A stretch of 64,000 nt of DNA from Vulcanisaeta thermophila (GTDB lineage Archaea > Thermoproteota > Thermoprotei > Thermoproteales > Thermocladiaceae), in the NCBI RefSeq assembly GCF_001748385.1, contig NZ_BCLI01000001.1, forward strand, positions 475,177 through 539,176. The letters run 5' to 3'. A program made the translations under genes and the position numbers. The first letter of the stretch is position 1, and each line of letters begins with the position of its first letter. The notes beneath the pieces are model-generated. The model saw only the letters and a list, made by a program, of their open reading frames with translations. It had not been told where the DNA came from and ran no database searches. Shown piece by piece: positions 51,003-58,470 of the stretch.

Positions 51003-51176
51003 AACGCACCACCTAGCCAACCCAAGCCTCAAAATCATTAAAACCACTCTATTTCCCATACCCACGTATGCTCCTTCATATCTATAGGCAGTTTCGTAGA
51101 TAAAAGTTTTATTTCAATATATTTATGATATATGCATATAAAAGAATGCTTTTTAAACAGTTGCAACGTATTACTT

Positions 51177-51837
51177 ATGTTCCGATCTGTATTTACCATA
51201 TACCTCTACCGTGGCGTTGGGCGTGGAATGAAGGTTACCGTTGACGGTAATAAGATCATAAAGCTCACAGGATTTAATGAGCACCCTGTCTCTCACGGTC
51301 ACTTGTGCGGTAAGGGCGTCTCTGCCATTATCTTTAAGGAATGCGCAGAGTAGCGCCCATAATGAGCGGGTTGAGACTTGAGGATGTTATAGACCCAACT
51401 AAGGGCTCGAAGATACCGGAGAACACACCACACCTATACTCCAACAGGTTCCTAACACCCAGTGGTAAGGCCAGATTCTTCCCCATTAAGTATAAGCAGG
51501 GCATCATAGGCAATAGAGGGTTCATACTAATCACCGACAGGGGTATCCTCATGTATAATACTGATAATGAGATTAGGAAGGTAAGTGGTAAGTTCGAATG
51601 GAGGTATTCATGAACCCAGAGAGTGCTAAGGCCCTCGGTATAACCAAGGGCAGTGGTCAAGTTAATTTCTAACTGTGGCGAGGAGACCTTCAGGGTTAGT
51701 AATGACGTATTGAGGAATACGTTATTCGCGTACATGCATGATGGGGGATAAACTACGTGGTCTACACAGGGTTCGACCATACATGAAGACCCAGGTACAA
51801 GGTCACCCCAGTTAACGGGACACCACTAAGGCGGTGA
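51177..51837 (+). pseudogene. Decayed molybdopterin oxidoreductase (formate dehydrogenase-like)
   Basis: 51177-51353 encodes GVGRGMKVTVDGNKIIKLTG and HPVSHGHLCGKGVSA, the N-terminal 4Fe-4S domain, but CxYCGVGCG has become LYRGVGRG, losing Cys ligands. 51341-51613 encodes SNRFLTPSGKARFFPIKYK, from the C-terminal part; then ESAKALGITKG and, after stops, YKVTPVNGTPLRR. The catalytic middle of what should be a gene of 2 kb or more is missing. A promoter-like TTTTTAAAC precedes it. Confidence 0.75.
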
Positions 51838-55434: not shown

Positions 55435-55803
55435 TCAATAATGAGATATAATAATGTATAACAGTGCTTCGAGGAAGCCTAAGGGTACATAACATAGTGT
55501 CAACCATGGCTTCCGCAAAATATACATCAACCAAACAACACATAGTTCAAGAATGCCCTGAAGAATAATCAGAAATCCAAATAAACCCAGGGGTATACTG
55601 GCTATACAGAGAATTAATCCATTTATAAAGAACCAGAGATAAAGTATAAAGTTAATAAATCTAGATAAGTAATAAATAATCAATGAAGTGAGCACGTTGC
55701 GGGTAATTATGAGGAAAATATCGATTAAAGACAACGGCTTTATAGAATAAGGTCTCACCCTAATTACTATGAGATTCAATAGTAGGCCCATAATAAACCC
55801 CAT
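55435..55803 (-). CDS. Small polytopic membrane protein
   Basis: 122 aa with about four hydrophobic helices; no known family. Start overlaps the stop of the M48 protease gene by one base, so coupled. In a bacteriocin-like operon this position would suit an immunity or export protein, which is conjecture. Confidence 0.6.
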   Translation of the reverse strand: MGFIMGLLLNLIVIRVRPYSIKPLSLIDIFLIITRNVLTSLIIYYLSRFINFILYLWFFINGLILCIASIPLGLFGFLIILQGILELCVVWLMYILRKPWLTLCYVPLGFLEALLYIIISHY

Positions 55804-56990
55804 TAGTGCATAAAGCCAGGGTAAAACCCATGCAGTATTAAAATTAGGGCCAGGTTTAAGGCGTAAATTATGACAAAAGGGATGAGGGAACGCAGATACT
55901 TACCCAAATCCCTATACATTATCAATGGTGAGGTAAGGGTTATTACGAGGTAGTAAGCACCGTATAGTGCCTGATTAACGTGAATGATGGGCCTAATGGG
56001 CGTCAGGAATGGGAGTAATGATAGGAGGTAATACAGCATGAGGATAACCCTGGCATCACTGAGCCCTATGCCCACAGCCTTATACATGAGCATGCCTATG
56101 TAGGATATTAGTAGCAATAGGATAAATGCGGAAGACGCAAACAACACAGCGAATAATGCCAGGAAGCTCCCAGGAATCACGTGAGCCAAGGCTTCAGTGA
56201 CGCTGATGGATAAAGTGGTGACCAATAACGCCAGATAGGGTGCGAGAACCTTCAGGTGCCAGGGTATTGAATCCACATTAATACTTACAGGCCTAGAGCC
56301 CCTGATTGGGTGTGGGTCAAATAACCTAGCTAATCCCCCACGTTCAGGCACCTTTGATAATGCACGTTTAAATGCATGAACCATGCCATGAGTCACAACT
56401 AGAGCGTCAGCCTCAGACTCCAGTTGTTTCATGAATGTATGGATCAGGATAAGGGCCACGAACACCCCAACCGCGTATATTAGCGGATAAGCCAGCAAAT
56501 CACTCGCCAGCAGGGGCTCAAGTAACAACCAAGCTTCGTAGTAGAATAGGTAGAATGCCATTAGCGCTAATATCAACATTTTAACATGGTTATACTTAAT
56601 ATGGCCCTCTTCATGCTTTATCACAGCAAGCAACTCATCATTACTTAATACATTGATGAAACTCCTACTGATGACTATTGCATTTATGCCGGGGGCTATG
56701 GGTACGCAGGCATTGAGTACTGGTTTACCACCGTACCTGGTGGATACGCTATCATCGGCAACATAGTAATTCTCCCTATGCTCAAGTTCACGTAATTTAG
56801 CCGCAACATCACGCCTCACTAATACCAGGGTCAATGCTATTATTAACAATGATACGATTAATGAAACCACACCATTCCTAAACATATTATAGAATAACAC
56901 GTCAAACGCCAGGCCTATGAAAAAGGATAGCCAGAACTGGGGTATAAACATAAAGTAGAAAAAATTTGATTTTGATTTTGAACCTGACAT
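55803..56990 (-). CDS. M48-family membrane metalloprotease (HtpX-like)
   Basis: 395 aa. Zinc motif KHEEGHIKYNH (H126, E127, H130), third ligand in QLESEADALVV, flanked by many membrane helices (two before, several after). Larger than typical HtpX (about 290), with an extra C-terminal membrane part. Lies 9 bp after a gene for a highly hydrophobic peptide, which it might process. Confidence 0.85.
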   Translation of the reverse strand: MSGSKSKSNFFYFMFIPQFWLSFFIGLAFDVLFYNMFRNGVVSLIVSLLIIALTLVLVRRDVAAKLRELEHRENYYVADDSVSTRYGGKPVLNACVPIAPGINAIVISRSFINVLSNDELLAVIKHEEGHIKYNHVKMLILALMAFYLFYYEAWLLLEPLLASDLLAYPLIYAVGVFVALILIHTFMKQLESEADALVVTHGMVHAFKRALSKVPERGGLARLFDPHPIRGSRPVSINVDSIPWHLKVLAPYLALLVTTLSISVTEALAHVIPGSFLALFAVLFASSAFILLLLISYIGMLMYKAVGIGLSDARVILMLYYLLSLLPFLTPIRPIIHVNQALYGAYYLVITLTSPLIMYRDLGKYLRSLIPFVIIYALNLALILILHGFYPGFMH

Positions 56991-56999
56991 ATTATTACC

Positions 57000-57302
57000 T
57001 CATAACCCAGCAAATACGCCTCCGATGATCAACCAACCATATGGTGTTAACACCGAAGCTCCCACTGCCATAGCTGCAAGTAAGGTTATCCCTCTACTTG
57101 CTGCGAACCATGCTGCACCTAGCGTAAATCCTATTACAAAACTACCTCCTGCAGAAACAAGTGGGGTCCATTGGCCAGTGAGCCAACCGTATATTGCATT
57201 TACTAGTGGTATCCATGTCGTTATCAGCGTTAGTATTGTCACCATGTATAGTGCCGCCGCCTTTATTAGTAGGCCCTTATTTATATTGGTCTTGGTCATC
57301 AT
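57000..57302 (-). CDS. Very hydrophobic 100-aa peptide, possible protease substrate
   Basis: 100 aa: a charged start MMTKTNINKG, a hydrophobic helix (about 11-40), then a long Gly/Ala-rich hydrophobic part from about 50 to 100 ending YGWLIIGGVFAGL without charge. This composition recalls membrane-active peptides such as circular or two-peptide bacteriocins. First gene of an operon with M48 protease, 25 nt after a (TA)7 promoter. No sequence match to a known family was recognised. Confidence 0.65.
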   Translation of the reverse strand: MMTKTNINKGLLIKAAALYMVTILTLITTWIPLVNAIYGWLTGQWTPLVSAGGSFVIGFTLGAAWFAASRGITLLAAMAVGASVLTPYGWLIIGGVFAGL

Positions 57303-57321
57303 CCTTTTTTATTTTAGCTGT

Positions 57322-57335
57322 TATATATATATATA
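57322..57335 (-). promoter_or_regulatory. Alternating TA promoter of the peptide/M48 operon
   Basis: Seven TA repeats ending about 20-33 nt before the ATG at 57302 form an unusually long TATA element. Confidence 0.5.
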
Positions 57336-57481: not shown

Positions 57482-58470
57482 TTATTTTTCTGGGGTGAAT
57501 TCTATGGTCCAGTTGTAGAGTGTGTAGCCTAGTATTGCTGTTCCCTGGTTATTATTGTTGAATTCCATCCCCACCTGTATTGCGTCTAGGTAATAGGTTG
57601 ATGGGTTGTAAATATTGACACCGGCCCTTTCTAGGTAGGGGCCCATGTTCATTAGTATGTATGTGATGGGTACGCCCACCTCACCCTCGAGTTTGTATGG
57701 CGCTAGTATGTACACGCCAGTCCACCCACTTGCCGAGCCAGTCCTTGGTAGGACGTAGACGTACCAATCCAGTTTCTCCATGGTTCCGTTGATTAGGGTT
57801 GGTATTTCCATGGTCCCGGTGTATATGAAGTAGGGGTTGGATGATAGGTTCTCGTTCCAGTACATCCAAATCATGACTTCGAAATCACCATAATGCAGGT
57901 ATGTGGTGTTTGGGTTCCTCGTTAGCCATATGTCGTAGGAGAAGTCATCAATTGTTCCTTCATCACAGTAGACCGTGAAGTTGAGTATTGAGTAGAAGTT
58001 TGGTAGTTGGGACACAATCATTGGTATAGGGGTAGTTCTGGGGATACCCTTGTTTGTCCGGCGAATGGGAACCACATCTCCCTCCCATACATCAACCCTG
58101 GGTACCCATCCACTGGGATTGAAGGTGTTATCTTTTGAATGCCGGACATGTTAATTGTTACCTCCAGGTATGGTGTGAATATCATGTTAGTGATCCCCAG
58201 TGCGTACTTTATATTCCACAGGAATGGTGATGCAAAGAGGGGGTGCTTCCTCCGTATAGCACGGCCATGGAGTACCCATTATCTGATTGGTATGACCCTA
58301 TTAATGAGAGGCCCTTGGCCTCCGTTGGGAATAGGGTTATTGATTAGGCACCATTGGCTTGTTGGGTATGGTTTATGGATTTTATGCCCATCCTGTTAAT
58401 TATTAGGTATGTGATTGAGCATATTATTACTCAAGGCAAGCCCAATTAATACAATGGTAACTCGTTGCAT
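57482..58470 (-). pseudogene. GH12 endo-glucanase gene, several frameshifts
   Basis: The open part 57482-58075 (197 aa) has catalytic [11 protein letters not shown] and [13 protein letters not shown]. Upstream another frame gives [20 protein letters not shown] and [17 protein letters not shown] up to a stop at about 58018; further pieces ([15 protein letters not shown]) are in yet another frame, and ATG 58470 starts MQRVTIVLIGLALSNN, the signal peptide. At least four frame breaks. GH12 enzymes of crenarchaea hydrolyse cellulose-like glucans outside the cell. No longer functional. Confidence 0.75.

Follow-up and report, generated by a model that had tools for sequence, protein, structure and literature searches.

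What do three tightly packed genes of the thermophilic archaeon Vulcanisaeta thermophila, coding for a small Gly/Ala-rich peptide, a membrane protease and a small membrane protein, make together? The window, that is, the whole 64,000-nucleotide stretch analysed here (contig NZ_BCLI01000001.1, positions 475,177 to 539,176), belongs to a 2.02-Mb archaeal assembly (G000), and 12 genomes of its genus are in the set used for comparison. An earlier note, made from the letters of this DNA, proposed an antimicrobial or signalling peptide accompanied by its maturation protease and by an immunity or export protein. The proposed layout finds support in the recurrence of the module, since the same order is kept in 11 or more operons whose genes are intact or almost so, as well as in several partial or decaying copies, and the third gene is SpoIIM-like; the type of activity, antimicrobial or signalling, has the rank of a candidate. 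With moderate confidence, and by analogy with better-known systems, the operon is read here as making a secreted membrane-active peptide against competitors (an archaeocin), which would be cut by the M48 protease, while the SpoIIM-like protein would provide export and/or protection. The features of the window operon are listed below, in the direction of transcription; the operon types mentioned in the list are described in the following paragraphs.

57321..57335, minus strand: TATA box, an alternating TA run recognised in the sequence, with its centre about 26 bp upstream of the peptide ATG.
57000..57302, minus strand: candidate precursor peptide of 100 amino acids (aa), an open reading frame (ORF) with a basic N-terminus, a hydrophobic helix to about Pro32 and then an almost uncharged Gly/Ala-rich part.
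56997..57001, minus strand: Shine-Dalgarno-like GAGGT recognised in the sequence, which overlaps the peptide stop codon and precedes the protease ATG.
55803..56990, minus strand: membrane M48 metalloprotease of 395 aa, candidate maturation protease (Pfam PF01435, 43.5 bits, E 4e-11).
56601..56615, minus strand: zinc-binding/catalytic motif H126-E-E-G-H130 of the protease (HExxH is invariant in the type A protease alignment).
56406..56420, minus strand: E191-S-E-A-D195, the ExxAD motif of the protease (the ExEAD columns are conserved in the type A protease alignment).
55435..55803, minus strand: divergent SpoIIM-like membrane protein of 122 aa, candidate export/immunity partner (motif order N..NG..ILELC; profile similarity).

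The three ORFs are intact and lie where the earlier note had placed them, with a gap of 9 bp between the peptide and the protease and a 1-base overlap, in the form TAATG, between the protease and the third gene. The grouping goes beyond chance, because the same order recurs, in diverged form, in the genus and in Sulfolobales. Other elements of the first description need to be toned down. The alternating-TA promoter had been called unusual and is actually an ordinary archaeal TATA box, as the TA run stands about 26 bp before the start, the normal place for leaderless archaeal mRNAs. The AT-richness attributed to the region does correspond to a lower G+C at 56-58 kb, but the shift is mild (0.44 vs about 0.50 across most of the window).

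Within the genus, genome G003 harbours four such operons, assigned to types A, B, C and D, each in the order peptide, HExxH membrane protease and SpoIIM-like protein. Specifically, its type A operon (L008/L102), reached via the M48 search, codes for a 108-aa Gly/Ala-rich peptide, a 407-aa M48 protease and a 157-aa membrane protein in the window order, and the three proteins are 23-35% identical to their window counterparts. The SpoIIM (PF01944) search of G003 retrieves two accessory copies; ahead of each stands an HExxH membrane protease, which in turn follows a small Ala/Gly-rich peptide. Type B (L098) combines a 79-aa peptide, a 489-aa HEVQH protease and a SpoIIM protein above the cut-off, and type C is represented by L099 in G003, a better copy (L105) in G005 and further partial copies in G002 and G001. 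Type D, found with the SpoIIM profile, occurs in G009, where it is intact, and in G003 and G005; it joins a peptide of 105-107 aa to an HEEHH protease and a SpoIIM-like protein. The spacings between genes are mostly from -76 to +15 bp, with one of +99. Moreover, frame-broken copies of type A are present in G011, G009 and G036, and a close M48 relative in G019 (40% identity) has one internal stop; G003 and G009 are lower-quality assemblies, and the decay in G011 is probably real because this genome is a single contig. Such decay supports the antagonistic reading, as a pattern of gain and loss is typical of bacteriocin loci. Stand-alone proteases of the B/C kind without partner genes were left out of the counts (L133 on C5 in the window's own genome, and L135-L141 in other Thermoproteales). 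One orphan of this kind, an M48-like protease with neither peptide nor SpoIIM, lies in the window's own genome (L133; G000:C5, 2665-4101); its neighbourhood, with an ABC-type permease and an MFS transporter, is similar to that around the type A operons of G003 and G011 and suggests a shared insertion hotspot.

The module extends beyond the genus. A profile of the B/C-type proteases run over 398 genomes of the phylum locates operons in Sulfolobales, and a Sulfolobales profile detects the unit in 5 of the 118 good-quality genomes of the order, for a total of seven operons (L142 and L158 in G377, L144 in G228, L143 in G297, L157 in G476, L159 and L160 in G336). All seven have a peptide gene (103-113 aa) together with genes for an M48-like protease and for a SpoIIM-like product; in L160 and L157, the SpoIIM ORF is apparently truncated, and a further, broken set (L145) exists in G297. 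The Sulfolobales proteases have no matches in the genome-contig, viral-contig and plasmid collections. The compact operon, its patchy distribution and decay and its hydrophobic, membrane-active peptide would also suit a selfish element akin to toxin-antitoxin modules, in which the peptide would harm its own producer from within and be neutralised by the protease, the SpoIIM protein or both. However, an addiction module would not need three genes in conserved order, one of them for an export-type membrane protein, and the Sulfolobales search found no stand-alone pairs, so that an element of this sort is very unlikely.

Three loci met along the way deserve mention in their own right. Divergent from the operons L158 and L159 (L158:166-1763 and L159:377-1975, minus) lies a pair of genes, one for a further hydrophobic peptide (112-133 aa) and, after it, one for a membrane protein of 394-420 aa, which may represent a second peptide system of a different kind. 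Locus L198 (G108:C1, 3314-5916), from a distantly related family of the phylum, holds a SpoIIM-like gene with an ABC-2 type permease and an HEIRH membrane protease nearby, and no peptide gene was recognised in it. Lastly, a Thermoproteales relative, L134 (G043:C27), pairs a protease with a 111-aa SpoIIM-like protein, and the region expected to hold the peptide is masked by an assembly gap.

The second gene of the window bears out the M48 protease with an HEEGH site described earlier: its Pfam score exceeds the cut-off for M48 (20.3 bits), and both HEEGH and ESEAD are present, the ExxAD motif being the source of the third zinc ligand in family M48. Judged by score and motifs, it is a clear member of peptidase family M48. 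Its best score as an HtpX equivalog (27.1 bits) is below the NCBIfam cut-off of 275, close relatives are absent from the genome-contig, viral-contig and plasmid collections, and neither M48 nor SpoIIM has PDB relatives detectable by sequence. The proteases of type A and of the tested Sulfolobales (S) types match M48 above the Pfam cut-off. Those of types A and B/C can be aligned solely in the HExxH region; a common origin of all the operon proteases is hence not claimed.

For both small proteins, the earlier note had recognised no known family. This holds as far as Pfam and NCBIfam are concerned, as neither the 100-aa nor the 122-aa protein has a match there, but the third protein turns out to be SpoIIM-like by profile. 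It aligns by sequence onto the SpoIIM proteins of the B/C operons and scores 14.2 bits against the operon SpoIIM profile (E 0.0029 over 1,440 ORFs), a score reached by none of 4,000 shuffled versions of it (best 8.1; half of them keep the hydrophobic pattern); a smaller profile, from which the short L134 member is absent, yields an E-value of only 0.19. A profile-profile comparison (hhalign) between the window protein and operon SpoIIM gives P 2.8e-4, and the third proteins of the window and of G003 type A are related to each other, as 3-4 of 2,000 shuffles reach their score. On sequence grounds, the 122-aa product is thus a divergent SpoIIM-like protein and not a Pfam member. Among the other operons, type B (57.9 bits) and one S copy (29.7 bits) exceed the Pfam SpoIIM cut-off, and others are just below it.

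The pairing of these two proteins bears on a different explanation. HtpX-type M48 proteases perform membrane quality control. Archaeal SpoIIM has been linked to membrane remodelling (PMC5898192), and the operon could accordingly serve membrane housekeeping, with an HtpX-like quality-control protease, a SpoIIM remodelling partner and the peptide as small regulator or substrate. Such a role is unlikely, since most genomes of the class already have other M48 relatives, the operon is patchily distributed and diverged, exists in multiple copies and has often decayed, and the SpoIIM genes outside the operons are located elsewhere, without M48. Indeed, by automatic count, only 1 of the 31 SpoIIM loci of the class sits beside an HExxH membrane protease, namely operon B; the count overlooked type C (L041) owing to the broken frame of its protease gene. 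The association of SpoIIM and protease is hence special to the operons under study.

The candidate precursors share size and composition. The window peptide contains 27% Gly+Ala and three Lys in residues 1-25, and its sole later charged residue is Arg69, which makes the charge-free C-terminal part described earlier a nearly correct statement. Across operons, the peptides are mostly of 79-113 aa with 24-32% Gly+Ala, and all have 3-5 Lys/Arg within the first 25 residues and 0-1 beyond, the remainder being neutral or slightly acidic; those of Sulfolobales have in common the leader-like motif L-A-x-x-P...A. Homologues living apart from M48 genes, which the earlier note had named as an argument against its view, were not encountered: the sequence search with the window peptide returns, apart from the query, one chance match and a copy in G036 with a broken frame, next to the remnant of an M48 gene, and all seven Sulfolobales peptide matches (197 genomes of the order searched) adjoin the protease. 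The match set aside as chance is a weak one in G047, which sits inside a flavoprotein-like ORF. The D and B peptides are homologous by sequence (0 of 1,000 shuffles reach their score); elsewhere, the equivalence of peptides across types is drawn from position, size and composition. It could be argued that the 100-aa ORF is no genuine gene, or that the window copy is dying, and that the protease alone matters, given that several relatives are pseudogenes and that peptide conservation across types is mostly not significant. Against this stand the TATA box, the Shine-Dalgarno-like element and the TAATG overlap, the integrity of the three window ORFs, the 52% identity over 33 aa that even the decayed G036 copy keeps, and the peptide of similar size and composition that heads every complete operon, which together leave a spurious or dying gene highly improbable.

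In the reading favoured here, the 100-aa precursor would insert into the membrane via its basic, signal-like N-terminal helix, the membrane M48 protease would cut it within or after this helix, the uncharged Gly/Ala-rich C-terminal 55-70 residues would be freed, and the SpoIIM-like protein would export the product and/or protect the producer. Gene order, M48 membership, the SpoIIM-like third protein, the recurrence of the module, its patchy distribution and its decay are established here; beyond them, we infer that the peptide is the substrate of the protease, where it is cut, that the SpoIIM-like protein acts in export or immunity, and that the product is antagonistic. Several results weigh against this reading. 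The window and related peptides match no bacteriocin family in the Pfam and NCBIfam scans; AlphaFold2 predicts four helical segments for the window peptide and for a Sulfolobales peptide at low confidence (predicted local distance difference test, pLDDT, 56 and 53, respectively); cross-type homology among A, B, C, D and S peptides, D-B excepted, is not demonstrable by sequence; and the similarity between the window and G003 type A peptides is not significant alone (181-208 of 2,000 shuffles). Moreover, the third protein of the window falls below the Pfam SpoIIM (PF01944) cut-off, that of G003 type A reaches only 0.9 bits on its own, which is not significant, and the type D protease and SpoIIM-like protein have no Pfam match. 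Finally, a scan for Walker A and ABC signatures in 16 related loci and in the 45-64 kb part of the window detects only one ORF with both motifs, near the type A operon of G003 and apparently unrelated, so that no ABC ATPase adjoins the other operons.

The same processing chain could, alternatively, release a hydrophobic pheromone by which cells would sense density or kin. Peptide signalling predicts an identical genomic anatomy, and types A-D together in one genome could be separate channels; yet a linked receptor or regulator was not apparent near the operons, the products, at a predicted size of about 60 aa, are large and highly hydrophobic, and the frequent decay better fits weapons, all of which makes a pheromone quite unlikely.

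Around the window operon, the adjoining gene (57482-58185, minus) codes for a GH12 glycosyl hydrolase split over two reading frames, whose Pfam GH12 match begins at profile position 60; because of the split, it looks frameshifted or dead. Farther away, two short ORFs in different frames (51132-51613) look, by eye, like fragments of a molybdopterin oxidoreductase, whose gene has probably decayed.

Peptide, M48 protease and SpoIIM-like protein thus constitute a minimal unit of three genes that recurs among thermophilic archaea, complete Sulfolobales genomes included, and its presence in this order, for which genetic tools exist, makes the maturation question testable. The archaeocin reading would add a candidate class to a phylum with very few characterised antagonistic proteins, and the products of hyperthermophiles should be unusually stable. 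No description of the unit was found in a literature search that excluded Makarova et al. 2019 (mBio 10:e00715-19), a possible partial listing, and the sulfolobicin study of Ellen et al. 2011.

Among known systems, the HtpX/Ste24-type M48 proteases share HExxH and ExxAD, membrane helices and the Pfam M48 family with the window protease, which differs in its weak, sub-cut-off match to the HtpX equivalog and in sharing an operon with genes for a peptide and a SpoIIM-like protein. Epipeptides (EpeX/EpeP) likewise couple a membrane-embedded metalloprotease to an antimicrobial peptide and, to our knowledge, have no SpoIIM partner. EpeP, an M50 and not an M48 protease, is thought to cut and perhaps export EpeX (PMC10885120), which is shorter and differently modified. 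The sulfolobicins (SulA/SulB) provide a precedent for proteinaceous antagonism from a small operon in Sulfolobales (PMC8628083, PMC3718332); in the available parts of these accounts, they are two proteins with signal peptides, for which no M48 or SpoIIM partner is described, and are set apart from the present unit by those descriptions.

The closest likeness in design is with circular bacteriocins such as enterocin AS-48 and leucocyclicin Q, which have a small hydrophobic Gly/Ala-rich precursor, an N-terminal leader and a SpoIIM (DUF95) protein. SpoIIM is considered class-defining for the bacterial circular bacteriocins (PMC13289728), and without its DUF95/SpoIIM protein, mature leucocyclicin Q stays in the cell (PMC7132975); the archaeal operons do carry such a gene, above the Pfam cut-off in B and one S copy and below it in the window. 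Conversely, the bacterial clusters carry an ABC ATPase and almost all are without a protease (PMC8534725), with few carrying M48 or M50 (PMC8659200), whereas the archaeal operons are devoid of the ATPase and have a dedicated M48-like protease in every complete copy; the archaeal peptides match no circular bacteriocin profile, and as regards a compact helical (saposin-like) core, the two peptide models offer four helices at low confidence. In the favoured reading, the window operon works like a circular-bacteriocin cluster, which is a statement of likeness and not of membership. A closed peptide ring is possible; that the peptides of thermophilic archaea are cyclized head to tail, with the operon M48 removing the leader and joining the ends so that three genes suffice, is a doubtful but conceivable extension. 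For the bacterial clusters, no protease has been characterised for leader cleavage (PMC8534725, PMC8659200), and if ring and M48 reading were both true, the archaeal operon would hold the maturation enzyme that is missing from them.
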